A stretch of 36,710 bases of DNA from Rhodospirillales bacterium (GCA_947457845.1 CANGXM010000006.1:1-36710), one strand, 5' to 3'. Positions 2,099 to 36,710 are shown, numbered from the stretch's first letter. The notes: generated by a model not told the origin, from the sequence alone. Program-made: numbers and translations.

Positions 2099-5000
2099 CT
2101 AAAGCTCGACGGCGATCTCACCTCCCGCAGTCGCGGCGCGGGAGCAGCACAGCACGACCTTCCGTCGACGCTCGACGTTCGACAGGACGAAGTCGCGGTG
2201 ATCGACCTCTCCGGCGACGAGGGGCGTCGCGCAGACGCCGCAGATGCCGCTCGAACATTTGGTGTCCACGCGGATGCCGACGTCGGCCAGCACGTCGGTC
2301 GCGCTGCGGTCGGCCGGCACCTCCAGGGTGCGCCCGCTCCGGGCGAGACGCAGGATGAAGGGGAAGCTCGCCCTGTCGGCATCGTCGGGAACCGAGAAGT
2401 ATTCCCGATGGAGGGCCTCGTCCGGCCAGCCGTTGGAAACGGCCGCCGCCAGCACACCGTCCATGTAGCGCGCAGGGCCGCACGTGTAGAGGTGCATGCC
2501 CGGCCGGTGGCCGGCGGTGAGGGCCGCGAGATCGGCGCGGTTTCCCTCGTCCGAGAAGTGCGTCACGACTTGTTCGGCCCAGGCGACGGTGCCGAGGTCG
2601 TCGACGAAGGCGGCCGTCGCACGCGACCGACTGGAGTAGTGCAGCGTGAAGTCGCGCCCGAGCGCATGCAGCCGGTGGGCCATCGCAAGCATCGGCGTCA
2701 CCCCGATGCCGCCTGCGAACAGGAGCGATCGGGTCGCATCCTCGACCAGCGGGAAGTGGTTGCGCGGACGCGAGACGAAGACCGGCCGGCCCGGCTGGAA
2801 CACCCGGTGCATCAGACGCGAGCCGCCGCGTCCTTCTGCCTCCTTCTGCACCGCCAGCACGTAGCGCGAGTTATCGGCCGGATCACCGGCCAGCGAATAC
2901 TGCCGCTGGAACTCGGGCGCGATCACCACGTCTACGTGCCCGCCCGCCTCGAACGGCGGTAGGGGCGATCCGTCCTCGGCGACGAGCTCGAAGCGCGCGA
3001 TGTCCGGCGTTTCGTCCACCCGACGGTCGAGCCGGGTGCGGACGACCGGCGGCGGGCCGTCCGGCAGGCGAAACGGCGGCGCGAGCCCGTCCGTTCGGCC
3101 CTCCGCGAGACGCCGCCTGTAGTCCTCGGGCGTCAGGAGCGTCCGATAGCGCGCGATCCCCGCCTCCCGGTCCAGGGGCGCCGTCAGCGGATAGGGCGGG
3201 GGCATCGTGTCGGCGGGATAGACCGCCAGCGTCTGGTCCTCGTGGCGCAGGTCGATGTGGGTGTTGAGGTCCCGCCGGCTGGTCTGGGCGGCCGGGATGT
3301 AGGTCATGGTGGCCGGGTCCATGTCGATGTCCCACCACCAGGCCTTGACCGGGTTCTGCCGTCCGTTGCCGACCAGATCGTCGAGCCGCGCCAGCGCCTT
3401 CGCAGCCCACGGCGCCTTCATGGCGAGCCAGCGGAACGGCGCCTCCTGGAACAGCCCCTCGAGGTTCCACGGGCAGGTTTTCATGCATCGCCCGCACATC
3501 GATCCGGCGTCGTTGGTGATGCGGTAGCGCGCGCACTTCTCCGCGTCCGACTTCCAGATCTCGTAGCCGTTGTACATCACCTTCGGCCCGGCGGTGATCG
3601 CCCCCGACGGGCACTCGCGGGCGCACTTGTTGCAGCTTCCGCAGAACGTCTGGAGGCCGAAGTCGATGGGCTTGTCGTGTGCCAACGGCATGTCGGTGGT
3701 GACCACTCCCGACTTCAGCCGGGGGCCGAGGTAGGGGTTCAGGATCACCTCCCCGATTCGGCTGACCTCGCCCAGGCCCGACAGGAGGAGGAGCGGCGGC
3801 TGAAGCACGTCGCCGTCCAGCGCGGAGTGCACCCGCGCCGAATAGCCGAGCCGCCGGATGTGCTCGGCGACGATCCCGCCCAGCAGCGAGGATCTCAGGT
3901 ACGCGCGCATGCTCTGCGCGGCCGAGATCCAGTCGTCCCCCGACGTGCCCTCCATCGTCTCGTGGCCCTGGTCGACGAGGATGGAGATGGCGTGGCCGTG
4001 ATAGGGGGCGATCGGTGCGCCCGCGGCGTCGTGGGAGTAGTAGGCCCAGTCCGGGCAGCGCGAGATGCCGACCGCGTCTGCGCCCAGGAAGTGCAGCGCC
4101 GCCTTCACGCCGTCGGCGTCGCGGCGCGGGTCGCGCGCGGCCGGGTCCGGGGCCCGGTGGGCGTCCCCCTGCTGCAGGAGGAGCAGGGCCCCGAGCGCCC
4201 GGCGCGAGCAATAGCCGAGCGGGTTGCGCAGCACGAAGAAGCCGTTCTTCGCCTTCTCCTGCACCGCTTTGCCCATGTCGCCGAACAGGGCGCGGGCGAA
4301 GAGGTCGGCGCGCTTGGGAAAGCGCGGGACCCGGGGCTCGTCGACGAAGGTCGTGGGGGTGTCGCGGCGGCGAATCCGCTCGAAAGGCAGGGCCCCGTCG
4401 CGGAACCGGCGTGCGCGATAAGGCAGACGGTTCAGGAGGCCCTTGAACGTGCCCTGCCCCAGCCACCATGACGGCCCGTGGGAGCGCAGCCGGTCGGCGA
4501 GACCGCGGCGCGCCAGCGGCCGGTCGGTCGCGATCTCCAGCGTGGTCGTCACCGCGGCCAGCGCATAGCGGCGACCGCAGTACGGGTTGCGCGCGGACCG
4601 GCCGTCCGGTGCCAGTTCGTTCAGCCCGGCCGAAATCGCCAGCCGCTCCAGGTCCACGTCGGCGCTGGACGCGGTGTGGGCGCGCGCCTCGTGTCCCAGG
4701 ATGCGGATGTAGTTGGCCAACACCACGGCGGCCTCGGCAGCTCGCACGGCCGAGCGCTGATCGCACGTGCCGACGATCCAGTCGGCTCCTGGCTCCCCGG
4801 GGTCCGGCTCCCGCGGATGTTCGACGAGGACCACCAGGACGTGGGTATGGTGGTCGATCGGGCCGGGCCTCGTCGTCGCGGCCTCCTTCACGTCGGCCAT
4901 GATGACGTCGATGCCGGACGAGAAGGTCTTGGTCTGCCCGGTCTCGATCCGTCGCACCAGATCGGCGAGACCCGGGTTGACGATGGGCTCGGCCAGGCGT

Positions 5001-5323
5001 GCCCCCGGCAGGAGGCGGCAGACGCCCACCTGGGTCGCGTCGAAGAAGTGGGCGGCGGCCTTGAGGTGGCGCGTGCGTTCCGCCGGGTCGTCGGGGATGG
5101 GTGCCCGTTTCGTGGCGACCGACCCTTCCCGGATCGCGTCGAGCATCCCGATGAACAGGCCGATGGCACCGGCGATCGTCCCGGTGTCGCCCGAGGCGTC
5201 GAAGTCCGACGCCCGCATCGGCGGAAGCCCGCTCAGGTCGGGCGTCGCGTCCGTCCGCGCGAGGCGCTCCAGCGGATAGGGCCCGAGGTGGACCGGGCGG
5301 TCGCGGGTGGAGAACAGGCGCAT
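2099..5323 (-). CDS. Catabolic reductive dehalogenase fused to an FMN/[2Fe-2S] NAD(P)H reductase, 1074 aa
   Basis: Predicted cobalamin-dependent removal of halogen from organohalides, probably haloaromatics, in the cytoplasm. Residues 1-650 form the dehalogenase. The ferredoxin-like part carries CGSCNKCARECPSG (first Cys about 561) and CGRCMKTCPWN (first Cys about 610) for two [4Fe-4S] clusters. About 760-985 is a phthalate-dioxygenase-reductase-like module with RQYSLAG (flavin) and GGIGVTPM (nucleotide) motifs. A plant-type [2Fe-2S] domain follows (CSSGICGVC from about 1023, then a Cys pair). No TAT signal or membrane anchor gene is visible, unlike respiratory RdhA/RdhB. The architecture matches the self-sufficient type known from BhbA of Comamonas, which debrominates hydroxybenzoates. 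The N-terminal third looks like a degenerate duplicate of the cobalamin-binding core. GAGG precedes the ATG. The family is secure; the substrate is unknown. Confidence 0.93.
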   Translation of the reverse strand: MRLFSTRDRPVHLGPYPLERLARTDATPDLSGLPPMRASDFDASGDTGTIAGAIGLFIGMLDAIREGSVATKRAPIPDDPAERTRHLKAAAHFFDATQVGVCRLLPGARLAEPIVNPGLADLVRRIETGQTKTFSSGIDVIMADVKEAATTRPGPIDHHTHVLVVLVEHPREPDPGEPGADWIVGTCDQRSAVRAAEAAVVLANYIRILGHEARAHTASSADVDLERLAISAGLNELAPDGRSARNPYCGRRYALAAVTTTLEIATDRPLARRGLADRLRSHGPSWWLGQGTFKGLLNRLPYRARRFRDGALPFERIRRRDTPTTFVDEPRVPRFPKRADLFARALFGDMGKAVQEKAKNGFFVLRNPLGYCSRRALGALLLLQQGDAHRAPDPAARDPRRDADGVKAALHFLGADAVGISRCPDWAYYSHDAAGAPIAPYHGHAISILVDQGHETMEGTSGDDWISAAQSMRAYLRSSLLGGIVAEHIRRLGYSARVHSALDGDVLQPPLLLLSGLGEVSRIGEVILNPYLGPRLKSGVVTTDMPLAHDKPIDFGLQTFCGSCNKCARECPSGAITAGPKVMYNGYEIWKSDAEKCARYRITNDAGSMCGRCMKTCPWNLEGLFQEAPFRWLAMKAPWAAKALARLDDLVGNGRQNPVKAWWWDIDMDPATMTYIPAAQTSRRDLNTHIDLRHEDQTLAVYPADTMPPPYPLTAPLDREAGIARYRTLLTPEDYRRRLAEGRTDGLAPPFRLPDGPPPVVRTRLDRRVDETPDIARFELVAEDGSPLPPFEAGGHVDVVIAPEFQRQYSLAGDPADNSRYVLAVQKEAEGRGGSRLMHRVFQPGRPVFVSRPRNHFPLVEDATRSLLFAGGIGVTPMLAMAHRLHALGRDFTLHYSSRSRATAAFVDDLGTVAWAEQVVTHFSDEGNRADLAALTAGHRPGMHLYTCGPARYMDGVLAAAVSNGWPDEALHREYFSVPDDADRASFPFILRLARSGRTLEVPADRSATDVLADVGIRVDTKCSSGICGVCATPLVAGEVDHRDFVLSNVERRRKVVLCCSRAATAGGEIAVEL

Positions 5324-5383
5324 CCTGTCGGCCTCACGATGTCGCGGACGGGGCCTTTCGGCCGATCGGGCTCACGATGCCGA

Positions 5384-5427
5384 CCGGATCGGGACAGGGC
5401 GCCGGGCGACGCCACGCCCCGATCCGG
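5384..5427 (-). terminator. Intercistronic inverted repeat between bug and the dehalogenase gene
   Basis: CCGGATCGGG (5384-5393) and CCCGATCCGG (5418-5427) form a perfect 10-bp stem with a 24-nt GC-rich loop in the 110-nt gap. No T-run follows, so it is more likely an mRNA-stabilising hairpin or partial terminator than a full stop. Confidence 0.5.
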
Positions 5428-5433
5428 CGACCA

Positions 5434-6441
5434 TCACTGCAGCGGACCGGCCGCCGCGATCAGGGGCGCGTAGAACGCCCGGTCCCGGGTCAGCCAGCCG
5501 GCGAGTTCCGCCGGTCCCGTCGGCGTGGGGATCAACGCCGACTGCTCCAGACGTGTCCGCACCTCGGGCTCGCCGAGCGCCTTGACGATCGCCTCGTTCA
5601 GGATGCGAACGGTGTCCGCCGGGGTGCCCGCGGGGGCGAAGACGCCGTTCCAGGCGTTCGTCTCGAGCGCGCCCACCCCCGCTTCAGCGAAGGTCGGCAC
5701 GTCGTCGACCCCCGGCGCGCGCCTCTTGCCCGTCACGCCGAGCAGTCGGACCTGGCCGGCCTGATGCTGTGCGGCGAAGTCCGCCGCGGCGGCGATGCCG
5801 ATCGCGAGCCGCCCGCCGACCAGATCCTGGACGATGGGAGCCCCGCCCCGGTAGGGGACGACCGTCAGCGGGATGCCCATGGCACGCGAGAAGGCGATGC
5901 CGGTCAGGTGCGGAAGGCTCCCCAACGCGGGCACGCCGTAGTTCGCCTGCGATGGGTTGGCCGCGAGCCAGTCCTTCAGGCCGGCGAGCGTCGTCACGCC
6001 GCCGCCGGGACCGGTGAGCGGCCCCGTCGCCAGCCCGGCTGCGAACTCCGAGACCCCCGCCACCGGCGCGAACCCGCCGACCGGATCGTAGCCCGCGTCG
6101 GTGAAGGCGATCGGCGTGATCGCCATGACCGAGGTATTGGCCAGCAGAAGCCGCGACCCGTTCGGCGGTGCCGACTGGACCGTCCGCGCCGCGATCCGCC
6201 CCCCGGCGCCGGACTGGCTGTCGACCAGCACCGTCCGCCCCAGGGTGACGGCGATCCGGTCGGCGATCAGGCGCGCCATGAGATCGGTGGAGCCGCCCGG
6301 CGGAAAGGGCGACAGGATCGTGATCGGCCCCTGGAACGCGAGCGGCGCGCCGCTGCCCTGGGCGCGCACGATCGCAGGGGCCGCGAGGACCGCGATGCCG
6401 CCGGCGAGCAGGACGCGACGGGACGGAGGTTTCGGACGCAT
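5434..6441 (-). CDS. Bug/TctC-family tripartite tricarboxylate transporter substrate-binding protein, 335 aa
   Basis: A periplasmic receptor that would bind an organic acid and hand it to a TctAB-type membrane pair; no such pair lies in this window. The N-terminus has twin-Arg-like SRRVLLAGG and a hydrophobic stretch ending around APAIVRAQ, so it is exported. The mature part starts with the family pattern ITILSPFPPGGSTDLMAR and continues with LVDSQSGAGGRIAA and ANTSVMAITP, typical of Bug proteins. Length is usual for the family. AGGGAGA precedes the ATG. It is the first gene of a two-gene unit with the dehalogenase downstream. The bromoxynil-degrading Comamonas cluster likewise pairs BhbA with a TTT-family receptor, so uptake of the halogenated substrate is the likely role. 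Ligand identity is inferred from context only. Confidence 0.9.
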   Translation of the reverse strand: MRPKPPSRRVLLAGGIAVLAAPAIVRAQGSGAPLAFQGPITILSPFPPGGSTDLMARLIADRIAVTLGRTVLVDSQSGAGGRIAARTVQSAPPNGSRLLLANTSVMAITPIAFTDAGYDPVGGFAPVAGVSEFAAGLATGPLTGPGGGVTTLAGLKDWLAANPSQANYGVPALGSLPHLTGIAFSRAMGIPLTVVPYRGGAPIVQDLVGGRLAIGIAAAADFAAQHQAGQVRLLGVTGKRRAPGVDDVPTFAEAGVGALETNAWNGVFAPAGTPADTVRILNEAIVKALGEPEVRTRLEQSALIPTPTGPAELAGWLTRDRAFYAPLIAAAGPLQ

Positions 6442-6539
6442 GGCGTGATCTCCCTGGATTGTCGTTGTCGTTTCTGCCTTTTCCGCCGGACCGGCGGGTC
6501 CTCTTGGTCTTCGTCGGCCGGACGACGATCTGCCATGAT

Positions 6540-6559
6540 GTCGACCGGCACGCGTCGAC
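6540..6559. promoter_or_regulatory. Paired GTCGAC sites in the bug/marR divergent region
   Basis: Two GTCGAC hexamers at 6540-6545 and 6554-6559 are spaced 14 bp start to start in the 159-bp divergent promoter region. Together they make a 20-bp imperfect palindrome. They might be a second operator, but a GC-rich genome gives this hexamer by chance fairly often. Confidence 0.25.
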
Positions 6560-6585
6560 GACGATCGGTTCGCCGACGCCCTCTT

Positions 6586-6601
6586 TGTTGATGGGTCAAC
6601 A
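6586..6601. promoter_or_regulatory. Putative MarR operator overlapping the marR start codon
   Basis: TGTTGA (6586-6591), a TGGG spacer, then TCAACA (6596-6601) form a perfect 6-bp inverted repeat whose last base is the A of the marR ATG. TTGA/TCAA half-sites are common for MarR dimers. The position would allow direct autorepression, and it leaves no room for a Shine-Dalgarno sequence at this ATG. Confidence 0.5.
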
Positions 6602-7197
6602 TGTCATCATCGGTCTCTCCCGGCAAGACCGGCCGCCGCCGATCGGGTGCAATCGCGACCCCGGGCCTTCCCGATCCGCCGACGGTCGAGAGCACCATTC
6701 TGTTCAAGGACCTGCTGGTGCATCAGGTGGTCGGGTTCGCCACGGGGTTCGTGCAGGCCGTCGCGACGACCTACACGGAGCGCCATGGGGTCGGCCTTCC
6801 GGAACTGCGCATCCTGTTCCTGCTCGCCCGGCTGGGGAGGCTGTCGCCCATCCGCCTCGCCGAACACGCCGGCACCGACCGCGCGACGGTGACGCGCGCT
6901 TTGCGGGCGCTGGTCGATCGCGGGTTCGTCGTGATCCTGGCCGACCCGACCCATCGGCGACGGACGTTCGCGCAACTCACGCCGGAGGGGGCGGCCGCGC
7001 AGGACCGGCTCGCCCGGTTCGCGAGCACGCGGAACGCCTGGATGCGCACCCACTTTTCGGAAGCCGAGAAGGAGACGCTGCTGTCCCTTCTCGGTCGCCT
7101 TGATGCACTGGTCCGGGACCTCGACGGGACGCCCGACGGACTTCCGCCTGGGGATGGCGGCGCATCCGGACGGCCGAACCATGGAACCGACGATTGA
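6601..7197 (+). CDS. MarR-family transcriptional regulator, 198 aa
   Basis: A winged-helix repressor-type protein. A disordered 30-residue N-terminus precedes the usual helical dimerisation segment. The core reads LPELRILFLLARLG, LAEHAGTDRATVTRALRALVDRGFV (recognition-helix region, near residues 90-115) and the wing DPTHRRRTFAQLTPEG. It is divergent from bug and the dehalogenase across 159 bp, so it probably controls them in response to an aromatic acid or its halogenated form. No ribosome site is visible before the ATG; the transcript may be leaderless, or translation may start further in. The family is certain, the ligand unknown. Confidence 0.88.
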   Translation: MSSSVSPGKTGRRRSGAIATPGLPDPPTVESTILFKDLLVHQVVGFATGFVQAVATTYTERHGVGLPELRILFLLARLGRLSPIRLAEHAGTDRATVTRALRALVDRGFVVILADPTHRRRTFAQLTPEGAAAQDRLARFASTRNAWMRTHFSEAEKETLLSLLGRLDALVRDLDGTPDGLPPGDGGASGRPNHGTDD

Positions 7198-7273: not shown

Positions 7274-7645
7274 ATGAACCGCGCCTTCACGAACATCCTG
7301 TGTATCGACGTCCAAGGGACGGCACGGTTCTACGAGACTTTGCTCGACCTGAGACGGATCGGCGACTACGGCTGGTTCGTCCTGCTCGGCTCGAACGGGC
7401 CATCAGGCTTCGAACTCGGCTTCATCGACAGCAGCCATGAGACGGTACCGACCGCCATGGCGACGACGGCCGGTGGCATCATGCTCACGTTCGTCGTCGA
7501 CGATGTGCGGGCCGTCCATCGTCGGGCAGAGGCGATGAACGCCGAGATCATTCAGGAACCGACCGCTCTCTTCTATGGACAGACCAGGCTGCTGCTGCGG
7601 GATCCGTCCGGCACGGTGGTCGACGTGAGTTCACCCTCGCGATAG
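7274..7645 (+). CDS. VOC/glyoxalase-bleomycin-resistance fold protein, 123 aa
   Basis: A small protein of the vicinal oxygen chelate superfamily, with the typical opening FTNILCIDVQGTARFYETLL and closing LLLRDPSGTVVDVSSP. AGGAAA sits 7 nt before the ATG, which decides this start over longer in-frame options. Members bind metals or hydrophobic drugs, act as dioxygenases or lyases, or serve as simple binding proteins; nothing here fixes the substrate. It lies 76 nt after marR on the same strand and may share its transcript, which raises the possibility of a role linked to the dehalogenase substrate. Confidence 0.85.
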   Translation: MNRAFTNILCIDVQGTARFYETLLDLRRIGDYGWFVLLGSNGPSGFELGFIDSSHETVPTAMATTAGGIMLTFVVDDVRAVHRRAEAMNAEIIQEPTALFYGQTRLLLRDPSGTVVDVSSPSR

Positions 7646-13682: not shown

Positions 13683-14177
13683 TCAATTCCGACGGTCTCG
13701 CATCATCGCCGCATCGATCGACGCCAGCCCGCCGCCGAGCACGACGAGGGCGAGCGCCATGGCCGCCCAGGGCAGGTGGAAGTTCGTCCAGCCCTCCGGT
13801 ACGGTCAGCTGGATGACGACGGTCATGGCGAGGATGCCGAGCGCCGACAGGCGGGTGAGCAGGCCCACGACGAGAAGGGCCGGCAGCACGATTTCGGCCG
13901 CCCCGGCGAGCCAGGCCATGGCGAGCGGCATCGGATAGGGGACCGTGGCGACGCCGAGGTGCAGGCGGAACTCCTCGGTGAAGAGATAGACGACCCCCGG
14001 CGAAAGCGTTCCGAAGCCGTCCCACTTCGTCAGCCCCGAGCGGAAGAACGGCACCGCGAGGGCGATCCGCAGCATCAGCAGCGCCGGCCAAAGCGGCAGG
14101 GCCGCCAGCCGTCCCTCAGCGGCGGCAAGGGTGTTCATCCAAAGGGGACGGGGCGCGGCGTCGGCCGGAACGGTCAT
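13683..14177 (-). CDS. bufD: DoxX-family membrane protein of the bufferin operon (BufD-like), 164 aa
   Basis: A small four-helix inner-membrane protein. LLMLRIALAVPFFRSGLTKW and the C-terminal ILAMTVVIQLTVPEGW with LPWAAMALALVV are typical DoxX. Its ATG overlaps the bufC stop (ATGA at 14174-14177), a sign of translational coupling. In known bufferin (gig) operons a DoxX protein is the fourth component, with an undefined role in copper or gold response. A frameshifted DoxX remnant occurs at 1852-2098. The name follows operon position and family. Confidence 0.88.
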   Translation of the reverse strand: MTVPADAAPRPLWMNTLAAAEGRLAALPLWPALLMLRIALAVPFFRSGLTKWDGFGTLSPGVVYLFTEEFRLHLGVATVPYPMPLAMAWLAGAAEIVLPALLVVGLLTRLSALGILAMTVVIQLTVPEGWTNFHLPWAAMALALVVLGGGLASIDAAMMRDRRN

Positions 14178-14953
14178 GCGGGGTCTCCGAGGGCGGGCGT
14201 GACGGCGACGAAGGCCCCGGCCGACACCAGCCCGACGAGGGCGCGGCCGAAGTCGAAGGCGGGATCGGTGACCGCCGCCGCGGCCTCGGCCAACGGTCGT
14301 CCGGTGAGGACGGCGGCGGCGAAGGCGACGTCGCGGCCCGGCAGGACGTGGACGTCGACCGACGCGTCGGGGCGCACGACCAGCACGCCCTCCCCCCGCC
14401 AGTCGGCGACCGGACCGACCGGATCGGAGCGATGCGCCATCCAGATCGACCCCGCCGGATGGGGCGAGACCACGAGCGAGGTCGCGGGATGCGGGACGAG
14501 GGATGCACCGGCCAGCGCCTCGGGATCGAGGGCGGCGAGGCGGTCGAGGGAGAGCGGGTCCGCGTCGGCGGCGACGTAGGCGCGCATCCACGCGTCGTCC
14601 ACCCGCGCCACGTCGGCGAGGTAGGGGACGGCGTCGGCCGGGCGGAAGTCCGCGACGAAGTCCGGGAACCCCGTCCCGTACTCGTGCAGCAGCGGCGACC
14701 GAGGCCGGTCGATCGCCGCGAAGGTGCGGGCGACCGCGCGGAAGAAGGCATCTCCCACGAGACGCCGAACCGTCGGGAACCGGGCCTCCAGCGCGCCGGT
14801 GAGGGCGGCGGAGACGGTGTTGCGGTGTACGGCGAGGCGTAGCGCGTCGGCATGGCCAGCGGGATCGGCGAGATCCCAGGGGACCGGCCGCGCCGGATCG
14901 AGAAGCGCGCGGGCGAACCGCGCCTCCGTCGAATGGACGTCCGTCCAGGTCAT
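14174..14953 (-). CDS. bufC: BufC-like MNIO partner protein (DUF2063), 259 aa
   Basis: A DUF2063 protein, the partner (RiPP recognition or MbnC-like) of the DUF692 oxygenase. It begins with helical features of the family: ARFARALLDP, LRLAVHRNTV and LTGALEARFPTVRRLVGDAFF. The C-terminal half is a beta-rich domain (SIWMAHRSDPVGPV, VHVLPGRDVAFAAA). The ATG at 14953 overlaps the bufB stop (ATGA), which is better than the in-frame ATG at 14974 inside bufB. It is expected to bind the BufA1 precursor and present it to BufB in the cytoplasm. Confidence 0.9.
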   Translation of the reverse strand: MTWTDVHSTEARFARALLDPARPVPWDLADPAGHADALRLAVHRNTVSAALTGALEARFPTVRRLVGDAFFRAVARTFAAIDRPRSPLLHEYGTGFPDFVADFRPADAVPYLADVARVDDAWMRAYVAADADPLSLDRLAALDPEALAGASLVPHPATSLVVSPHPAGSIWMAHRSDPVGPVADWRGEGVLVVRPDASVDVHVLPGRDVAFAAAVLTGRPLAEAAAAVTDPAFDFGRALVGLVSAGAFVAVTPALGDPA

Positions 14954-15810
14954 GCGGGCACCGCGGCGCCGCACTCAGCCAGAATCGCCCGGTCGGCGCG
15001 GTCCTGCTGCCAGAGAAGCGTCTCCAGCGACGGCACGTCGTTGTCCCACTCGACCAGCGTCGGACGCGGGCCGGCGAGGCGCAGCACGAAGCGGTAAAGC
15101 GCCTCCACCTCCGGCGCCACGGGCGAGCCGTGCGCATCGATCAGAAGGCGCCGGCCCGCCCCGTCGCGCGTCTCGGCATAGCCGGCGAGGTGGATCTCGC
15201 CCACGCGATCCAGTGGGAACCGGCGGATCCACGCCTCCGGGTCGAAGCCGTGGTTGGCGGCGGAGACGACGACGTTGTTCACGTCGAGAAGCAGGCCGCA
15301 GCCCGTCCGATCGGCGATCGCGGCGAGGAACGCCGTCTCCTCCATCGTGTCCTGGGCGAAGCGGACGTAAGTCGAGGGGTTCTCCAGCAGGATTGCGCGG
15401 CCCAGCGTCTGCTGGACCTCGTCGACGTGGTCGACCACCCGTGCCAGCGTCGCAGCCGTGTAGGGCAGCGGGAGGAGGTCGGGCAGATGCTCGCCGCCGT
15501 GGCTCGACCAGGCGAGGTGCTCGGACACGGCGGTGGGGCGGAACCGGTCCACCAGCGCCTTCAGGCGGCCGAGGTGGACGCGGTCGGGCGGGCCCTCGCC
15601 GCCGATCGACAGCCCGACGCCGTGGACCGAGAGCGGCCAGCGCGAGCGCACAGCCTCAAGGTGCCGCAGACGCGGCCCGCCGTCGACCATGTAGTTCTCG
15701 GCGTGGATCTCCACGAAGCCGATCGCAGGCCGCTCGTCGAGGATGCGCAGCACGTGCTCGGCCTTCAGGCCGATGCCGGCGCGCGGAGGCAGGGTCACGG
15801 AGGCGGACAA
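14950..15810 (-). CDS. bufB: BufB-like multinuclear iron oxygenase (MNIO, DUF692), 286 aa
   Basis: A TIM-barrel iron enzyme that modifies cysteines of the bufferin precursor; for characterised bufferins this gives thiooxazole-type heterocycles. The sequence shows PRAGIGLKAEH, FVEIHAENYMVDGG, SVHGVGLSIG, VSEHLAW, LLENPSTYV, LLLDVNNVVVSAANHG, GEIHLAGYAE, DAHGSPV and LVEWDNDVP, which carry the conserved His, Glu, Asp and Asn metal ligands of DUF692. I place the start at a TTG (15808-15810), 8 nt after AGGAG; upstream codons would overlap bufA1 and look unlike the family. The length is then usual. It is coupled to bufC by a 4-nt overlap. Confidence 0.92.
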   Translation of the reverse strand: MSASVTLPPRAGIGLKAEHVLRILDERPAIGFVEIHAENYMVDGGPRLRHLEAVRSRWPLSVHGVGLSIGGEGPPDRVHLGRLKALVDRFRPTAVSEHLAWSSHGGEHLPDLLPLPYTAATLARVVDHVDEVQQTLGRAILLENPSTYVRFAQDTMEETAFLAAIADRTGCGLLLDVNNVVVSAANHGFDPEAWIRRFPLDRVGEIHLAGYAETRDGAGRRLLIDAHGSPVAPEVEALYRFVLRLAGPRPTLVEWDNDVPSLETLLWQQDRADRAILAECGAAVPA

Positions 15811-15846
15811 GGGTGCGTCTCCTGTCGGGGTGCGGGACGGCGCGTC

Positions 15847-15871
15847 GGGGGACCGTCGCCGACGGTCCCCC
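15847..15871 (-). terminator. Hairpin between bufA1 and bufB
   Basis: GGGGGACCGTC (15847-15857) and GACGGTCCCCC (15861-15871) form a perfect 11-bp stem with a 3-nt loop. No U-run follows. It sits 16 nt after the bufA1 stop and before the bufB ribosome site, where it could act as a partial terminator or 3' stabiliser, keeping the peptide in excess over its modifying enzymes. Confidence 0.7.
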
Positions 15872-15886
15872 GGGAACGATCGGGCC

Positions 15887-16183
15887 TCAGCCGCGCGGCA
15901 CGTCGCGAGCGAGGGCCTGGAGCGAGCCCTTGCGGCCGCCCGGCACCTCCATCGTCGCGCACGTGCCCGCCGGCACGACCTTCCAGGCATTGCCCTGGTA
16001 GTCGACGGTCGAGGTGCCGGCACAGGTGGTACCGGGTCCGGCGGCGCAGTCGTTCTTTCCCTTCAGCGCGACGCCGTAACACTTCTCGGTCCCCTGGGCC
16101 TGGACGCCCTCCACGGGGGCCATGGCGAGGGCGGCGGTAGCGAACGAGCCCGCGAGGGCGAGGGCGAGGGTGCGGCGGTTCAT
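15887..16183 (-). CDS. bufA1: Bufferin precursor peptide (BufA1, DUF2282), 98 aa
   Basis: A small exported copper-binding RiPP precursor. A Sec signal (residues 1-29, ending GVQAQ) precedes a core with four cysteines at 35, 46, 54 and 75 in the DUF2282 pattern: [13 protein letters not shown], then [13 protein letters not shown] and PAGTC. In characterised bufferins, cysteines of this set are oxidised by the BufB/BufC pair and the product binds copper in the periplasm. A 23-residue tail follows the last Cys. GGGAGA precedes the ATG. It is first in its operon, behind a SigF-type promoter at 16243-16268. Family and operon make the call firm; the metal is inferred. Confidence 0.93.
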
Positions 16184-26287: not shown

Positions 26288-28663
26288 CTAACTCGCGAAT
26301 TTGGGTGTCGTTGGACAAGTGTCGGAAACGCTTACCACTGCGGTCGTCCCGCCGGCCAACGACTTGGATTGCCGTCGCAAGGACTTCACTCTCTGGCGGA
26401 GGTCCGGGTCCGAAAGCAGAGCTTCGAAATCCGTCTGCGTCGCACCCATGATAACGTCCTTGATGACGCGCGCATGGCTGAACCGGCTCAACTGACGTTT
26501 CTGGGCACCGATCAGGTTCGACCGCAGATAGGCCTCGTCGGTCACGGTCCCGTTGTGGCTGTGCCCGAGCATCTGCGAACGCAGGGTCAGAGATGCGCCT
26601 TGTTCGGCGAGTTCGCTCGCACCTGTCGTCCGCATCGCATGAAAGTCCATTCCTTTCTGGTAGACACCGAGCGTCCGGCGCAACGCGGTGAACTCCATCG
26701 TGAACTTGTGACTGTAGCGTCCGCGGATCGGTTGCTTTGGCACGTCGCTGAAGAGGAACTCCTCCCCGTGCCGTCGGCGATCATGTGCGAGCGAGACGAG
26801 ACCGAGATCGACGAGGAGCGGGTGGATCACCACGATCCGCGCACTCGAGGTCGTCTTCAGCCGTCGAGGACCGGTACCGCGAAGGCGGAAGCACCAAGTT
26901 CCATCGATCTGCTCGACCTCTGACGGCCGCAAGGCGACGATTTCCTCGAGCCGCATGAAGGATAGGGCGCCGATGAGCGGAACCCAGGTTCGCATGTCCC
27001 GACGCCAGTCGCCGCGCGGCATGCCCTCGTTCCCGCGCCAGCCCTGCCACCATTCTGACGAGAACAGTGTCCGATAGTCGTCGTGCGACCAGACGGTGCG
27101 CGACACCTTTGCGTTGTCCTTGATGTCCGACTTCTTGTAGCCGAGATTTCGGAAAGGGTTCAGGCGCTCGTCGTGGTCCTCCGTCTCGGCGATCACCCGG
27201 AACATCTTCCCCAACGACCGGACGTGCTTCGAGATCGTGCCGAGACTGAGCACGTCGGTGATCCGCGCATGATCCGCATCAGCGAGACCGGCCAGTTCCC
27301 GTGCATCGCGACGCCCATCGCGTAGGGCGGCGGCGATCGCCTCGCGACGTTTGATCGCGACGGAAGGCGCCAGGCCCTTGTAAGGGGGATCGCGATGATT
27401 GGCGGGCAGGCGGGACAGCTTCTCGCGAAATGTCTTCGCCTGGGCTTTCGTGATGATGGACAGCGGGACGTCACCGACGAGCGCGCAGAAGAGGCGGGCG
27501 GCGAGCCGCACGTCGTCGCGGGTCTTCCGCTCACGGATCGAGACGTCCGAGAGGTTCAGGTATCGGCGGACGGCCAGCGAGACCGGATCGTCGATGGACG
27601 GGAGCGCCATCTCGTCGGCTGGCTCGGCCCGATCGACGATCACCAGATCCCGGGTCGCAGCCTTCTCGGGCACCACGGGCGGCGGAGCCGGACGTTGGAT
27701 TTCGAACGGATCCTCGCGGTACCGCATCGCATGGAGCCGGCCGCGCATGGCCTGTTGGCCGAGATAGGCCCAAAGGCGCGTCGTCGGTTCGACGACGAAC
27801 CCCGCATCGTCGAGGATATCGGAGAGGACTGACTCCGCGAGGGCGGCGTCGTCGGCCGCGATGCCGGCCTTGAGCGCCTTCTTTTCCAACGACCGGATAT
27901 GGGTCATCAGGCCACGCTCGTCGGGGCCGACATGATCGGGGCGGAAGCTCGCGATGGTTTCGAGACCGGTCAGGGTGCGCAGGAAGGCTTGGTCGCGCAC
28001 CCAGGTCCCGAGCGCGGATGGAGGCTCAGCCTCGAAATCCCGCAGACGGACACGGCGCGGCAGATCGGCCCCGTCGTCACCCGGACCACCCTCGATGGGC
28101 GGCCATGACGACGGACCGGCATACGCCACGCGGCGGGCGACGCCGGAGACGACGGCCTTCGCGAGCCCGCCGCCCTCGTCGGCCGGATCGTCCCGGTCGA
28201 CGGCTCCGACGTGGACGGAATCGGGGAGAGGATCGGGGGATCCGGTGGTGCCGTCCGCTTCCTGTGGCGCCTTCGACGTCGTCGGCCGGCTCCGGGGATC
28301 GAGAATGCGGGCGGCCGCTCCGGGGGTCCGCAAGAGGTCGCGGATCATCGCATCCATCCGCCGGACTTCGTCCTTCGACGCCTCTTCGATCTTCGCCTGG
28401 CGCGGCATGGTCCTGATCCGTTCGAACATCTCGTCGGTCGCCACGGACAAGCGCAGCGCCAGGCGCTGGGCCGTCGGACGATCCGTCGTCCGAAGCGACG
28501 CGGACATGTGGTCCTGCCCGAGCAGACCGACCAGTGCCTTCGGCACACGACGCCGCCAACGATAGACGGCGCCTCGCCGGATGATGTGCAGGCCCACGCG
28601 ATCGGCTCCGCGATGGGGTTCCGGTCGATCCCCCTTGACGTGTGTCACACCTGTGTGTGCCAC
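26288..28663 (-). CDS. Large tyrosine recombinase (phage/island integrase), up to 791 aa
   Basis: Site-specific integrase. The N-terminus has the DUF6538 pattern (GLHIIRRGAVYRWRRRVP). A long insert of about 200 residues follows, then a SAM-like DNA-binding domain. The catalytic domain holds MRLEEIVALRP (Arg, about 570), LKTTSSARIVVIHP (Lys), HAMRTTGASEL (HxxR, about 673), LGHSH and the nucleophile in DEAYL (about 712). An 80-residue tail follows. GTG at 28663 is the longest start; the GTG before GLHIIRR is an alternative. It starts 66 nt from the 3' end of tRNA-Gln, the usual place for an integrase at its attachment site. Catalytic residues look complete. Confidence 0.9.
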   Translation of the reverse strand: MAHTGVTHVKGDRPEPHRGADRVGLHIIRRGAVYRWRRRVPKALVGLLGQDHMSASLRTTDRPTAQRLALRLSVATDEMFERIRTMPRQAKIEEASKDEVRRMDAMIRDLLRTPGAAARILDPRSRPTTSKAPQEADGTTGSPDPLPDSVHVGAVDRDDPADEGGGLAKAVVSGVARRVAYAGPSSWPPIEGGPGDDGADLPRRVRLRDFEAEPPSALGTWVRDQAFLRTLTGLETIASFRPDHVGPDERGLMTHIRSLEKKALKAGIAADDAALAESVLSDILDDAGFVVEPTTRLWAYLGQQAMRGRLHAMRYREDPFEIQRPAPPPVVPEKAATRDLVIVDRAEPADEMALPSIDDPVSLAVRRYLNLSDVSIRERKTRDDVRLAARLFCALVGDVPLSIITKAQAKTFREKLSRLPANHRDPPYKGLAPSVAIKRREAIAAALRDGRRDARELAGLADADHARITDVLSLGTISKHVRSLGKMFRVIAETEDHDERLNPFRNLGYKKSDIKDNAKVSRTVWSHDDYRTLFSSEWWQGWRGNEGMPRGDWRRDMRTWVPLIGALSFMRLEEIVALRPSEVEQIDGTWCFRLRGTGPRRLKTTSSARIVVIHPLLVDLGLVSLAHDRRRHGEEFLFSDVPKQPIRGRYSHKFTMEFTALRRTLGVYQKGMDFHAMRTTGASELAEQGASLTLRSQMLGHSHNGTVTDEAYLRSNLIGAQKRQLSRFSHARVIKDVIMGATQTDFEALLSDPDLRQRVKSLRRQSKSLAGGTTAVVSVSDTCPTTPKFAS

Positions 28664-28728
28664 GGGGGTTGACGGAGCCCGGTTGCGGGGAGCGAACCCG
28701 TTGAATTTCCAAGGTTTTCAGGGTGGGC

Positions 28729-28803
28729 TGGTTGGGGCGCCAGGATTCGAACCTGGGAATGTCGGTACCAAAAACCGATGCCTTACCGCTTGGCGACGCC
28801 CCA
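28729..28803 (-). tRNA. tRNA-Gln (anticodon UUG)
   Basis: The minus strand begins TGGGGCG and pairs with CGCCCCA at the 3' side, followed by an encoded A-CCA. The T arm has GGTTCGAATCC. The anticodon stem TCGGT/ACCGA encloses the loop TTTTGGT with UUG at 28771-28769, reading CAA (and CAG by wobble). The 3' end faces the integrase gene and is a likely att site. Confidence 0.93.
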
Positions 28804-28841
28804 GCCGCAGGGACGGACAATAGCGATCGGCCGCGCGCGGT

Positions 28842-29720
28842 TCAACGTTCCGCGTTGGCGTCCGACAGGAGCGGACAGGCCGCGGTCCACCAGCCGGGGT
28901 GCGCCCCGCCGAGCGTCGCCGCGGCGCGGCGGGCCGCATCCTCGTCGTCGAAGAGGGCGAAGCAGGTGGCCCCGCTGCCCGACATCCGCGCGATCCGGCA
29001 TCCGTCGAGCGCGTCCAGGCGCTCCAGCACCTCGGCCACGACAGGCAGAAGCGTGACCGCCGCCGCCGTCAGGTCGTTGCGTCGCCGCCCCAGCGCGGCG
29101 CCGAGTGCCGCGACGTTGGGGGGAGCCTCGACCAGCGGATCGGGCGCGGAGAAGAGGCCCGTCCGGGCGCGGAAGACCGCGGGCGTCGGGCAGGCGACGC
29201 CGGGGTTGACGAGGACCATCCAGGCCCGCGGCAGCACGGGCGCAGGATCGAGCACTTCGCCGACCCCGCCCATGTTGACCGCCCGTCCGAGAAGGCAAAC
29301 GGGAACATCGGCGCCGAGCGGCGGCGCCACCCGGGCGAGGACGGGCGCGCCGGGCGGCAGGTCCCACAGTGCGGCGGCGGCCCGCAGCGTTGCCGCGGCA
29401 TCCGCCGATCCGCCCCCGATCCCCGACGCCACCGGGAGCCGCTTGACCAGCCGGATCGCCAGATCGGGCGGACGCCCGAGGCCGTCGGCCAGAGCGCGGG
29501 CGGCCTTCAGGACGAGGTTGTCCCCCTCCCCCGCGAGCCCGTCCGCCATCGGCCCCTCGACCGACAGGGACAGTCCGCGTCCGGCGCGCACCTCCACCGT
29601 GTCGCCGACCCCGGCGAAGGCGACGAGGCTGTCGAGCAGATGGTAGCCGTCGGGCCGCCGGCCGACGACGTGGAGGTGGAGATTGACCTTCGCCCGCGCC
29701 TCGGCGACGGCGACGGTCAC
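28842..29720 (-). CDS. ispE: 4-diphosphocytidyl-2-C-methyl-D-erythritol kinase, 292 aa
   Basis: GHMP kinase of the non-mevalonate isoprenoid pathway; phosphorylates CDP-methylerythritol using ATP in the cytoplasm. EARAKVNLHLHVVGRRPDGYH near residue 8 is the family signature, LPVASGIGGGSADAAATLRA the ATP loop, and MSGSGATCFALF the third GHMP motif. The GTG start overlaps the stop of the TPR gene (GTGA at 29717-29720). TPR-ispE-tRNA order is common in alphaproteobacteria, and this part looks like stable chromosome. Confidence 0.95.
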   Translation of the reverse strand: MTVAVAEARAKVNLHLHVVGRRPDGYHLLDSLVAFAGVGDTVEVRAGRGLSLSVEGPMADGLAGEGDNLVLKAARALADGLGRPPDLAIRLVKRLPVASGIGGGSADAAATLRAAAALWDLPPGAPVLARVAPPLGADVPVCLLGRAVNMGGVGEVLDPAPVLPRAWMVLVNPGVACPTPAVFRARTGLFSAPDPLVEAPPNVAALGAALGRRRNDLTAAAVTLLPVVAEVLERLDALDGCRIARMSGSGATCFALFDDEDAARRAAATLGGAHPGWWTAACPLLSDANAER

Positions 29721-31414
29721 GGGCGGCGGCCAGCGCCGGCGACGTCGCGCGGAATGGACCGGCCGAGCTTCTCGCGGATCTGGGCGATCAGATCCGCCTC
29801 CTCGGCCCGCAGCAGCGCACGCTCCCACTGGAAGCGCGCCTCGCTGTAGCGGCCGACGGCCCAGTAGACGTCCCCCAGGTGATCGTTGATCACCGGGTCC
29901 ATCGCCTTGAGCTCCACCGCCCGCTCCATGTAGCGGACGGCGTCGGCGAGGTTGCCGAGCTTGAAGTGGGCCCAACCGAGGCTGTCCACGATGTGCCCGT
30001 CGTTCGGGCGCAGGCGGACGGCGCGCTCCACCATCTCGCGCCCCCGCTCGAGGTTCTCGCCGCGGTCGATCCAGCTGTAGCCGAGATAGTTGAGCACGTA
30101 GGGCTGCTCGGGGCTCAGCTCCAGCGCCTTCAGGAAATCGGCCTCCGCCTGCGGCCATTGCTTGGAGCGTTCGTGGGCGATGCCGCGGGCGTAGAAGAGC
30201 CCCCAGTGGCGCGGCTCGATCACCGTCGTCCGCTCGAGCGCCCGGGTGTAGGGGCCGACCGCTTCGGCGAATCGCTCCGCCTGCCGGTGGAGGTCGCCGA
30301 GCCGGACGAGGGCGTCGGTGCGGTCGGGGCGCTCCTGCGCCATGGCGGTCAGGGTGTCGCGCGCCTCGTCCTCGCGCTTGAGGTTCGCGAGGCTGTCCGC
30401 GATCCGCAGGCGGCCCGTCCAGGCGAGCGCCGGAACCTCGGCCACCCGGCGGAACTCGACAAGCGCCTCCGTGTGGCGCTTGCGCTGGGTCAGCACGTCG
30501 CCGACGACGAGGCGGGCGAAGGCGAAGTCGGGGCGCAGGTGCAGGGCGATCCGGGCATAGAACAGCGCGGTCTCGTCCGCACCTTCCTGGTCGAGGGCGA
30601 CGGCGAGGTTGAACAGCGCCTCGGCCATCCCCTCGGCCGGCGTCGTCACGATGGGCGTGGTCGCGCCGGGGTCCAACATCCCGCCGGCGTCGCCGGACGT
30701 GGCCATGAACCGCGCGATCGCGGCGTCGGCGTCCGCGGCGCGGCCGGTGCGCCGGTAGAAGCCAGACACCGCCTGCACGACCCGGAGCGCGGGCCCCGCC
30801 TCCAGCGCGGCGGCATAGGATTCCGCGGCCGCGTCGAGGTTGCCGGACTGCTCGCGGATCAGCGCCGTGTGGAGATGCAGGAGCGGCCGCAGCCCGCTCG
30901 TCCGCTCGAGCGGCGCCAGGGCCGCGACCGCCCTGTCGGCGTCGCCGTTCGCGAGCGTCACCCAGGCGTCGAGGAGGGGGTGGAGGAACTGCCCCATGCC
31001 CTCGCGCGACATCCGCCGCATCCGGTCGGCCGCCGGCTCCGCGCGGCCCGCGCGCACGTCCTCGGCGATCTGGAACAGGGTGACGAGTTGGCCCTCGGCG
31101 CCGCCGGCGGAGAGCCGCTCCGCCAGCGTCCGGGCCTCGTCGGTCCGGCCGGCGCCGAGCATCAGGATGAAGGTCCGCTGGAGGAGGACCGGATTGCGCG
31201 GATCGCGCTCCAGCGCCTCGCGCGTGAAGTCCGCGGCCGCGGCCCAGTCGTCCGCCCGCTGGGCCGCCCGGCCGGACAGATAGCTGCCCGACAGCGTCGG
31301 CGCGGCCGGCCCGTCGATCCATTGCACGGCCTCTCCCGCCGCACGGACCTCGCCACCGCCGAGCGCGGCGGCCGAAACGGCCGCCATGAGCGTCCATCGA
31401 ACCCAGGGCATCAT
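29717..31414 (-). CDS. Exported tetratricopeptide-repeat protein, 565 aa
   Basis: Signal peptide [25 protein letters not shown], then TPR helices through most of the length (for example [39 protein letters not shown] and [20 protein letters not shown]). GGAG lies before the ATG at 31414, favoured over 31471 because the signal then begins properly. Located upstream of and coupled to ispE. Probably a periplasmic scaffold for protein complexes; the partner is not evident. Confidence 0.88.
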
Positions 31415-31490
31415 CGCGCGATCTCCGAAACCGAAGACCCGAAGGTAGAGCGCCGGGACCGTCCGGTTCAACCGCCTCCGCAGGATGTGA

Positions 31491-32252
31491 TCAGACGGTC
31501 CCTTCGAGGACCGCCGGACGCTTGCCGAGGATGATCATCCCGAGCACCTCGTCCTTGGTCACGTCGGCGGTGCGGACCGTGCCCACGAGCTTCCCGTTCT
31601 TCATCACGCTGACCCGGTCCGACAGGTCGAAGACGTCGTGCAGGTCGTGGCTGATCAGGAAGATGCCGATCCCCTCGGACTTCAGCTGCTTGATCAGCGC
31701 GCCCACCTGCCGCGTCTCGGCCGGGCCGAGGGCCGCGGTCGGCTCGTCCATGATCAGGATGCGGGCGTTGAAGTGGATCGCGCGCGCGATCGCGACCGCC
31801 TGCCGCTGCCCGCCCGACAGGTTGCGGACCGGATCGTTGATCTTGGTGAAGTTGGGGTTGAGCCGCGCCATCACCTTGCGCGTCTCGCTCTCCATCCGGT
31901 CGTCGTCGAGCGTGCCCCAGCGGGTCAGCAGTTCCCGGCCGAGGAACAGGTTGCCGGGCGCCGCGATGTTGTCGGCCAGAGCGAGGGTCTGGTAGATCGT
32001 CTCGATCCCGTGGCCGCGGGCGTCGGCCGGGCTGCGGATCTCCGCCGGCCGCCCGTCGATCCGGATCTCGCCCTCGTCGGCCCGGTAGGCGCCGGACAGG
32101 ATCTTGATGAGCGTGGACTTGCCGGCGCCGTTGTGGCCGAGCAGACCAACGACCTCCCCCGGCATCAGGTCGACCGACACGTCGTCCACCGCGCGGATGC
32201 CGCCGAAGTGGATGGAGATGTTCTTCATCTCCACCAGGGGCGTGGGGCTCAT
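31491..32252 (-). CDS. Sugar ABC transporter ATPase (XylG/FrcA-like, single domain), 253 aa
   Basis: ATPase of a CUT2 sugar importer. Walker [13 protein letters not shown], signature NLSGGQRQA, Walker [14 protein letters not shown] and switch [13 protein letters not shown]. It has one nucleotide-binding domain only, as in FrcA, whereas E. coli XylG has two fused; it would function as a homodimer. ATG overlaps the permease stop (ATGA at 32249-32252). Last gene of xylFHG-type operon. Confidence 0.92.
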
Positions 32253-33478
32253 CGCCGGCTCCTCTGGTAGATCGTGTCGACCCAGACGGCGAGGATCAGC
32301 ACACCGCCGATCACCACGTTCTGCATCGGCGACGGCAGTCCCAGCAGGATCATGCCGGCCTGCAGGCTCTGCATAATGACGGCGCCCAAAATGGCGCCCG
32401 CCACCGTGCCCACGCCGCCGGCCAGCGACGTGCCGCCGATGACGGCGGCCGCGATGACCGTCAGCTCGTTGAGCGTTCCGATCGAATTGGCCCCGGCGTT
32501 CAGCCGCGCCGCCGCCATGGCCGCGGCGATGCCGGCGAGAAGGCCCATCAGCGCGAAGATCCCGACCGTGACCTTGCGCACGTCGATGCCGGCCAGCTGC
32601 GCGGCCTCGGGGTTGCCGCCGATCGCGAACACGTAGCGGCCGAACCGGGTCGACCGGGTGAGGAAGCCCATGAACAGCGCCACACCGATCACGATCAGCA
32701 CCGGGATCGGGATGCCCTGGGGAATGTCGGTGCGCGGGCGGTAGTAGCTGTTCATCACCATCACGAAGGCGACGACGGCCGCGACCGCGGAGCCGGTGAC
32801 GAGGATTTCGGCCCAGAGGGGGCGCAGCGCGAAGGCGTAGCGCTTGCGCTGGCTCCGGCCCATCACCGCCGCGACGAGGATGAAGGCGATCATCGCCCCG
32901 CCGACGACCCACGACCAGAACGCGCCGATGGCGCCGCGCAGGCCGCCGCCGATGAGCGTGAAGCTGTCGTCCAGCGGGGCGACCGTGCGCCCCTCGGTGA
33001 CCGCCCAGGCGAGGCCGCGAAAGACCAGAAGGCCACCGAGCGTCACCACGAAGGCGGGGACGCCGCGGTAGGCGATCCACCAGCCCTGGAAGGCGCCGAT
33101 CGCGACCGCGACGGCGACGCCGAGCAGCAGCGCCGCGATCCAGTTCCAACCGACGCCGATGGGGAACACCTCGACCATCAGCCAGGCCATGATCATGGCC
33201 ACCACCCCCTGCACCGAGCCGACGGAGAGGTCGATGTGACGGGCGACGATGATCAGCACCATGCCGGTCGCCATGATGGCGATGTCGGCCGATTGGACCG
33301 CGAGGTTCCAGAGGTTGCGCGGCGTCAGGAACGTACCGCCGGAAAGCAGGTGGAAGCCCATCCAGATGACGGCCAGCGCGCCGGCCATGGCGAGGAGGCG
33401 CGTGTCGATCTCGAGCGCGTCCAGGAAGCGCTGGACGGGCGAGCCGGCCGACGGCTTCGGCGCCGCGACGGTGACCAT
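32249..33478 (-). CDS. xylH: Sugar ABC transporter permease, XylH-like, 409 aa
   Basis: Ten-helix-type CUT2 permease. [39 protein letters not shown] is family typical (residues about 50-88), as is the second [22 protein letters not shown] with [22 protein letters not shown]. It lies 84 nt after the binding-protein gene, across a strong hairpin, and is coupled to the ATPase. Symbol chosen because its binding protein closely resembles XylF. Confidence 0.9.
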
Positions 33479-33523
33479 GTGTGTCGTGCCCGTTGGCTCG
33501 GGTGGAACGGTTCCCGGAAGGGA

Positions 33524-33554
33524 CGGGTCCCGGCGGATCGCCCGCCGGGACCCG
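33524..33554 (-). terminator. Strong intercistronic hairpin between xylF and xylH
   Basis: CGGGTCCCGGCGG (33524-33536) and CCGCCGGGACCCG (33542-33554) form a perfect 13-bp stem with a 5-nt loop, 9 nt after the xylF stop. No U-tract. Expected to stabilise xylF mRNA or partly stop transcription, so that binding protein exceeds permease. Confidence 0.75.
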
Positions 33555-33562
33555 GACCCGCG

Positions 33563-34621
33563 TCAGCGGCAGGCCGCCGGCGCGCTGGCGCCCGACACGC
33601 CCTGGCAGACCACGTCCTTCGTTGCCCAGCCGGCCTCGATGACGACGTTGAGGTTCGCCTGGGTGATCGGCACCGGAGCGAGGAACAGCGCGTTCATCGT
33701 CACCTTGCGCGGGCCATCGGCCCAGGTGGTGGCGCCGGGGATGGCGTTCAGCGCCGTCCCGCGGGACAGCAGCACGGCCGCCTCGGCCGCCTTCTTGCCC
33801 AGCTCGCGCGCGTCCTTCCAGACGCTGACCGTCTGCTGGCCGCGGGCGACGCGGTTCAGCGCGGCGCGGTCGCCGTCCTGGCCGGAGACCGGCACCTTGC
33901 CGGCGAGGCCCTGCGCCGCGAGCGCCGCCACGGCGCCACCCGCCGTGCCGTCGTTGGACGCCACGACCGCATCGACCCGGTTGTTGTTGGCGGTCAGGAT
34001 CTGCTCCATGTTCCGCTGCGCGTTCGCCGGCAGCCAGCCGTCGGTGTACTGGTTGCCGACGACCTTGATGTCGCCGCTGTCGACGGCGGCCTTCAGGACC
34101 TCCATCTGGCCGGCGTGCAGGAAGTCCGCGTTCGGATCGGTGGGCGAGCCCTTGATGAAGACGTAGTTGCCCTTCGGCTGGACCTTGAAGACCTCGCGGG
34201 CCTGGATCCGGCCGACTTCCTTGTTGTCGAACGAAATGTAGAAGACGCCGTCGGCCTCGATCAGCCGGTCGTAACCGACGACCGGGATGCCCTCGGCCTT
34301 CGCCTTGGCGACGGCGGGCAGGATCGCATTGTTGTCCTGCGCGAGCACGATCAGCGCCGTGGCGCCGCGGGCGATCAGGCTGTCGATGTCGGACAGCTGC
34401 TTGGTCGGGTTCGACTGCGCGTCGGCGCTGACGTACTCGGCGCCCAGGCGGGTCAGTTCGGCACGGATCGCGGCCTCGTCGATCTTCCAGCGCTCCTCCT
34501 GGAAGTTCGACCAGCTGACGCCGACGACCGTGCGGCGCTGCTGCGCCTCGGCCGACGACCAGCCAACGGTGAGCGCCACGGCGGCCGCGGCCGCCGTGAA
34601 CAGACGACGTGAAACCTTCAT
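33563..34621 (-). CDS. xylF: Xylose-type sugar ABC transporter substrate-binding protein, 352 aa
   Basis: Periplasmic receptor. Signal [26 protein letters not shown]. The mature sequence follows E. coli XylF closely as I recall it: ERWKID near residue 42, [78 protein letters not shown] and [17 protein letters not shown] strong GGGAGGAG precedes the ATG. First gene of the operon. D-xylose is the likeliest ligand, though related pentoses are possible. No xylose-catabolic gene is in this window. Confidence 0.91.
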
Positions 34622-34687
34622 CTCGAAACTCCTCCCGCACGGGGCCCGGGTGGGGCCCGGATCTTCGCTTGGCCGGTCCTGCGAATG

Positions 34688-34703
34688 TTGACCGACAGGT
34701 CAA
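34688..34703. promoter_or_regulatory. Putative operator upstream of xylF
   Basis: TTGACC (34688-34693), GACA, GGTCAA (34698-34703): a perfect 6-bp inverted repeat, 67 bp before the xylF start, in the only intergenic region of the operon. Symmetry and site suit a LacI-, GntR- or ROK-type regulator encoded elsewhere. Confidence 0.45.
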
Positions 34704-34780
34704 ACACTGTCACGACCGTCTCGCGAGATCAATCGGGGGCAGCGTCCGGCCGCGCCAGCCCCCCGACGGGTGAGGTCCCC

Positions 34781-36439: not shown

Positions 36440-36562
36440 GTCCGCTCCACCCGTGCCGCGGGAACGCGCCCGTCCCGCGCCCCCCTGTCGTGCGGTCGAT
36501 CCCGGGCATGACCCGGCGACCGTTCCCGCGTTACAACATATGAGCAGAGGATGCGGGACTCC

Positions 36563-36710
36563 ATGATGGACACGGCGCAACTGATTGCCGCGCTCGCCTG
36601 GCAGATCGAGGCCGGAGCGGACGAGGCCGTCGGCGAGACGCCGACCGACTGGACCGCCCCGCGGGTCGGCCCCGCCACGGCGCCCGTGGCCCGGCGCCCG
36701 CCGGCGGACC
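36563..36710 (+). CDS. Family-4 uracil-DNA glycosylase, N-terminal fragment (runs off the window)
   Basis: Forty-nine residues: MMDTAQLIAALAWQIEAGAD, then EAVGETPTDWTAP and an Ala/Pro linker. The opening (LxWQ-x-EAGADEA-x-GE-x-P-x-D) is typical of alphaproteobacterial type-4 UDG, which has a non-catalytic N-terminus before the Fe-S glycosylase domain. The catalytic part is outside the window. Divergent from ETF-QO with 123 bp between. Start could be either of two adjacent ATGs. Confidence 0.7.
   Translation, partial: MMDTAQLIAALAWQIEAGADEAVGETPTDWTAPRVGPATAPVARRPPAD

Follow-up and report, generated by a model that had tools for sequence, protein, structure and literature searches.

The window analysed here, a 36,710-nucleotide stretch of a Rhodospirillales genome, carries a compact gene set that we read, with a probability of about 75%, as a MarR-controlled catabolic module, in which a self-powered enzyme would dehalogenate an ortho-halogenated 4-substituted phenol taken up with the help of a receptor, and the product would pass to PobA, PcaGH, and PcaDC. 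The module consists of a reductive dehalogenase gene (rdhA), a solute receptor gene, and a divergent marR gene with a palindrome at its start (Table 1). The sequence-only reading had proposed an oxygen-tolerant catabolic enzyme, and the phylogeny, the catalytic residues, and the predicted fold all agreed with this, supporting the assignment of the window protein (RdhA) as a cobalamin-type self-sufficient dehalogenase of that kind. The assignment of function is sound at the family level.

Table 1. Coordinates of the features of the dehalogenase module, counted from the first base of the window.
Feature	Position	Strand	Description and basis
rdhA	2099..5323	-	1074-aa self-sufficient catabolic reductive dehalogenase; TIGR02486, NpRdhA and phthalate dioxygenase reductase matches
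RdhA insert	4865..4993	-	43 aa, codons 111-153, 'SSGIDVIMADV' form; alignment of 87 sequences
Bug/TctC periplasmic solute receptor	5434..6441	-	PF03401, 2.3e-40; signal-like N-terminus read from sequence
Proposed MarR operator	6587..6600		palindrome GTTGATGGGTCAAC; abuts the marR start codon
marR-family regulator	6601..7197	+	PF12802, 1.7e-11; divergent from the receptor-rdhA pair

The rdhA ORF begins with ATG and runs for 1074 codons without an internal stop, and its product exceeded the curated cut-off of the NCBIfam RDH profile TIGR02486 (8.6e-63; 213 bits against 160). The fusion of a dehalogenase with two [4Fe-4S] motifs, a flavin reductase, and a [2Fe-2S] domain that had been read from the sequence was borne out by the profiles and motifs. 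Two cobalamin domains, one vestigial and one functional, are followed by two [4Fe-4S] motifs (C561GSCNKCAREC and C610GRCMKTC; Fer4_16 match at residues 561-620) and by an FMN/NAD(P)H/[2Fe-2S] reductase tail. The tail gave PDR/flavohemoprotein-reductase-like matches at residues ~764-1062 and aligned with phthalate dioxygenase reductase (2PIA) over residues 770-1066 (1.1e-67); it contains the FMN and nucleotide motifs R807QYS and G871GIGVTP and, within a Fer2 match at residues 994-1062, the [2Fe-2S] motif C1023SSGICGVC. Towards the N-terminus, the ORF gave another RDH match, weaker than the first (G000:C6:4514-5089), which corresponds to the predicted vestigial cobalamin domain, a feature described for catabolic RdhAs (JBC 2023, PMC10463259). 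Reading the N-terminus (MRLFSTRDRPVHLGPYPLERLAR) by eye revealed no twin-arginine or hydrophobic leader, and RdhA aligned with NpRdhA starting at residue 1, in line with the earlier claim that the protein has no export signal.

NpRdhA from Nitratireductor pacificus (4RAS, 6ZXU) matched residues 1 to ~740 of RdhA over nearly the whole NpRdhA length (1.6e-172), with 45% identity in the catalytic part. The two share a common fold over ~690 residues, whereas the fused reductase and the 43-residue insert of the window protein are both missing from NpRdhA. The NpRdhA active-site residues F291, S422, M423, Y426, K488, and R552 correspond to F342, S471, M472, Y475, K537, and R601 in RdhA, and all 87 sequences of the alignment, NpRdhA among them, have the same six residues. 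Structure prediction, proposed earlier as a check, gave an AlphaFold2 model (built from a 24-sequence alignment; mean pLDDT 79.9, pTM 0.78) that matched the NpRdhA fold at a TM-score of 0.9: NpRdhA was the top Foldseek match (0.88-0.90, normalised by target), followed by phthalate dioxygenase reductase and the self-sufficient P450 CYP116B46. Several active-site loops of the model had pLDDT values below 50, so that pocket detail lies beyond its reach.

In a maximum-likelihood tree of the cobalamin/Fe-S core that included BhbA, NpRdhA, and the respiratory type, RdhA grouped with NpRdhA and the fusions (bootstrap 100), the fusions were held together at 89, and the subclade of the window protein excluded BhbA (support 92). 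QueG stood apart from all dehalogenases; the grouping with epoxyqueuosine reductases that had been named as the contrary outcome did not occur. An epoxyqueuosine-reductase-like or a respiratory function, in place of catabolic dehalogenation, is thus extremely improbable for the protein. A QueG profile match was obtained, as expected of class III cobalamin enzymes, but it was weak (1.3e-6) and, at 27.6 bits, far under the cut-off of 200; moreover, QueG has no Lys/Arg pair, and the host genome encodes a separate QueG. The respiratory type was likewise rejected, given that no Tat signal was seen, a reductase is fused to the protein, and the tree sets it apart from PceA. The PF13486 (Dehalogenase) profile matched neither the host genome nor any of the control genomes and was therefore uninformative.

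This kind of dehalogenase is already known, as BhbA and JtRdhA have been characterised and the closest relative of the window protein is in a published tree. That relative, from Salinarimonas rosea (locus L001), a genus to which the host is related, was 78% identical along the whole length (support 1.0 on 686 core columns), and an S. rosea RdhA was included in the tree of JBC 2023 (PMC10463259). JtRdhA from Jhaorihella thermophila is reported to have the same architecture as RdhA (no Tat signal, a duplicated cobalamin domain, two [4Fe-4S] clusters, and a PDOR fusion) and, by description, an insert relative to NpRdhA with Y426/K488/R552 kept; unlike the window protein, JtRdhA has been purified and assayed. 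BhbA, encoded on plasmid pBHB of Comamonas sp. 7D-2 (L091), is a full-length fusion with 53% identity and a conserved active site, but it belongs to another clade, carries the insert form LRFNPSALLRQM, and adjoins ligAB; its gene lies on a conjugative plasmid, and the flank examined has no annotated MarR, whereas the window has a divergent marR gene. Membership of the window protein in the BhbA clade was rejected, as it grouped outside BhbA and lacked the LRFNP-type insert, and the window ORFs scanned contained no ligAB.

One scan of species genomes yielded 213 related stretches, 80 of which, each covering the whole query or nearly so, were retained, and eight plasmid records contained a relative covering at least 80%; the family is therefore well populated. 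The rarity implied by the sequence-only reading did not hold, since such enzymes are common in Proteobacteria and their biochemistry has been published. Within the host's own family, rdhA is patchy: no match above the family cut-off was found in 22 genomes, including the single one of the same genus.

In the proposed reaction, a hydride would pass from NAD(P)H to FMN within the 1074-aa enzyme, and electrons would flow via the [2Fe-2S] domain and the two [4Fe-4S] clusters to base-off cobalamin. The reduced cobalt would then strip the ortho halogen, more likely Br or I than Cl, from the 4-substituted phenol, with a proton supplied by Tyr475, which Lys537/Arg601 would activate. JtRdhA, which uses NADPH, removes bromine or iodine from 4-hydroxybenzoates, 3-bromo-4-hydroxyphenylacetate, and phenols, also aerobically (PMC10463259). 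The expected product, a 4-hydroxy aromatic acid without halogen, would be degradable by PobA, PcaGH, and PcaDC encoded on the chromosome. The earlier observation that no ring-cleavage gene lies nearby was true of the contig, where none was detected among the window ORFs scanned, but it does not extend to the genome: other contigs encode PobA (4-hydroxybenzoate 3-monooxygenase; 685 bits), the alpha and beta subunits of protocatechuate 3,4-dioxygenase (PcaG and PcaH), and PcaDC, each scoring over its curated cut-off. The host could thus in principle use a dehalogenated 4-hydroxybenzoate, although the two gene sets lie on separate contigs. A CobN-type cobaltochelatase, the sole cobalamin-synthesis gene examined, was also above its cut-off in the host genome, and a search of the window for a cobalamin riboswitch returned tRNA only. 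A substrate of the 4-hydroxybenzoate type is not assured, because RdhA falls outside the BhbA clade, the sole clade here that neighbours ring-cleavage genes.

The predicted divergent MarR gene was recovered together with a convincing putative operator. S. rosea has an orthologous divergent MarR (~67% identical) in the same place and the same palindrome, although the flanking genes of the two loci differ. At the sensitivity used, a single stretch, 18 bp long (TTGTTGAYGGGTCAACAT), was shared between the intergenic regions of the two loci; its core is the 14-bp inverted repeat GTTGAYGGGTCAAC. The window and the 23-kb S. rosea locus each contained the repeat once, and it was unique in the 4.17-Mb host genome with up to one mismatch allowed. 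Because it lies between divergent genes and is conserved together with an orthologous MarR, the palindrome probably serves as the operator of MarR. Searches around rdhA in the other relatives did not recover it, a few looser matches being located elsewhere and having other sequences, which makes it a trait of the window/S. rosea pair and not of the family. The regulator probably represses transcription in both directions from this site and lets go on binding the halogenated compound. A small ORF of the glyoxalase/dioxygenase superfamily (7274-7645, plus strand; PF00903, 2.2e-9) lies 3' of marR on the same strand.

The Bug receptor gene noted earlier lies upstream of rdhA on the same strand with a gap of 110 bp, and the two are probably co-transcribed. 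A self-contained uptake system was not supported: the periplasmic receptor is present, but no TctA or TctB partner was found among the scanned window ORFs, the four TctA matches of the host genome are on other contigs, and the S. rosea transporter differs. In the periplasm, the acid is probably bound by the receptor and passed to a TctAB permease encoded at another locus. Where the window has TctC, S. rosea carries genes for TRAP DctP and DctM, and TRAP receptors also occur near rdhA in a few other relatives; the transporter at this position is thus exchangeable, TctC for TRAP. The occupation of the same slot by two unrelated carboxylate-type systems suggests an organic acid as the substrate. 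TctC relatives were present in the flanks of just 6 of 62 dereplicated relatives, many relatives have marR directly upstream of rdhA with no transporter between them, and the receptor shares only ~33% identity with its counterpart next to bhbA, all of which would fit a functional unit of marR and rdhA with the receptor gene as an unrelated neighbour. We regard this as unlikely, given the shared strand and short spacing of receptor and rdhA, the position of the proposed operator upstream of the receptor gene, the order marR/transporter/rdhA kept in S. rosea with TRAP, and the TctC gene directly 5' of bhbA on pBHB.

The insert, at residues 111-153 of RdhA, accounts for ~40 extra residues in the fusions relative to NpRdhA and was modelled by AlphaFold2 as two helices and a short loop. 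An insert specific to the fusions and covering the active site was described for the JtRdhA model (JBC 2023, PMC10463259). Two forms were distinguished: the form of the window, typically xxSGIDxIMADx, in 81 of 86 fusions, and an LRFNP/LRLN form, shorter by one residue, in the other five, BhbA among them; the latter is under-sampled, as the window protein was the source of the search peptides, one of which lies in its insert. Among dereplicated loci, ligAB was found in the flanks of four of the five with the LRFNP/LRLN form and none of the 57 with the window form (Fisher p = 9e-6, which overstates independence because the five sequences are mutually related), and pobA in three of five and two of 57, respectively, with unequal flank lengths among the loci compared. 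Two loci of the majority form (L054 and L061) carry a PobA-like gene in the flank, with 51% and 54% identity to pOM-1 PobA, and are exceptions to the association of insert form with ring cleavage. The majority-form loci are linked to regulators and free of ring-cleavage genes in a reading that we offer tentatively, in which the self-sufficient dehalogenases would divide by function into two subclasses, each recognisable by its form of the insert predicted to cover the active site, the BhbA form acting on 4-hydroxybenzoates near ligAB and the majority form, that of the window, on another natural class of ortho-halophenol acids.

It is also possible, if on the unlikely side, that the same chemistry serves defence or salvage, with free bromo- or iodophenols, or some other ortho-halophenol of natural origin, being detoxified and the carbon left unused. 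MarR regulators often have detoxification roles, and the near absence of ligAB and pobA around the large clade of the window protein (0 and 2 of 57 loci) points the same way, as do the activity of JtRdhA on simple iodophenols and 2,6-dibromophenol (PMC10463259) and the conversion of 2,6-dibromophenol by a Roseobacter enzyme (PMC13101508). Against this, a carboxylate-type transporter, TctC here and TRAP in S. rosea, lies between the regulator and rdhA, and the host genome encodes enzymes for the use of 4-hydroxybenzoate.

The module is carried on a probable integrated genomic island (window 1-28803). Positions 28726-36658 were collinear with the same-genus genome, with collinearity ending 3 bases past the 3' end of tRNA-Gln (28729-28803), and a Phage_integrase-domain ORF (26288-28663) abuts this tRNA. 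The 12 kb around the tRNA-Gln of the same-genus relative contained no match to window 1-28725, and a 20-kb part of the window gave scattered matches to that whole genome, mostly to ABC-transporter genes. A search for a duplicated attachment site derived from the tRNA-Gln 3' end recovered no repeat of at least 18 bases covering it within the window, and the genome contained no second exact copy; position 1 is the end of the contig, and the far end of the island was not located. Within the same region, an ORF for an MbnB/TglH/ChrH-family RiPP-modification enzyme (14950-16023, minus strand; PF05114, 7.3e-100) adjoins a DoxX-domain ORF (13683-15137, minus strand), and the two (13683-16023, minus strand) are possibly a metal-related RiPP operon. 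A 143-bp stretch just 3' of rdhA (1892-2034) is 78% identical to 13711-13853 within the DoxX ORF and looks like a truncated DoxX relic.

Beyond the features first read from the sequence, the analysis adds a putative operator, an exchangeable transporter, a genome-level pathway, and two insert forms. The window holds an intact, well-delimited dehalogenase of the oxygen-tolerant, self-sufficient type in a lineage whose same-family relatives lack one. Because its putative operator is conserved and has no second copy in the genome, the regulator would lead directly to the natural inducer and, through it, to the substrate, and the two insert forms provide a simple hypothesis on what may determine the substrate range of the family.
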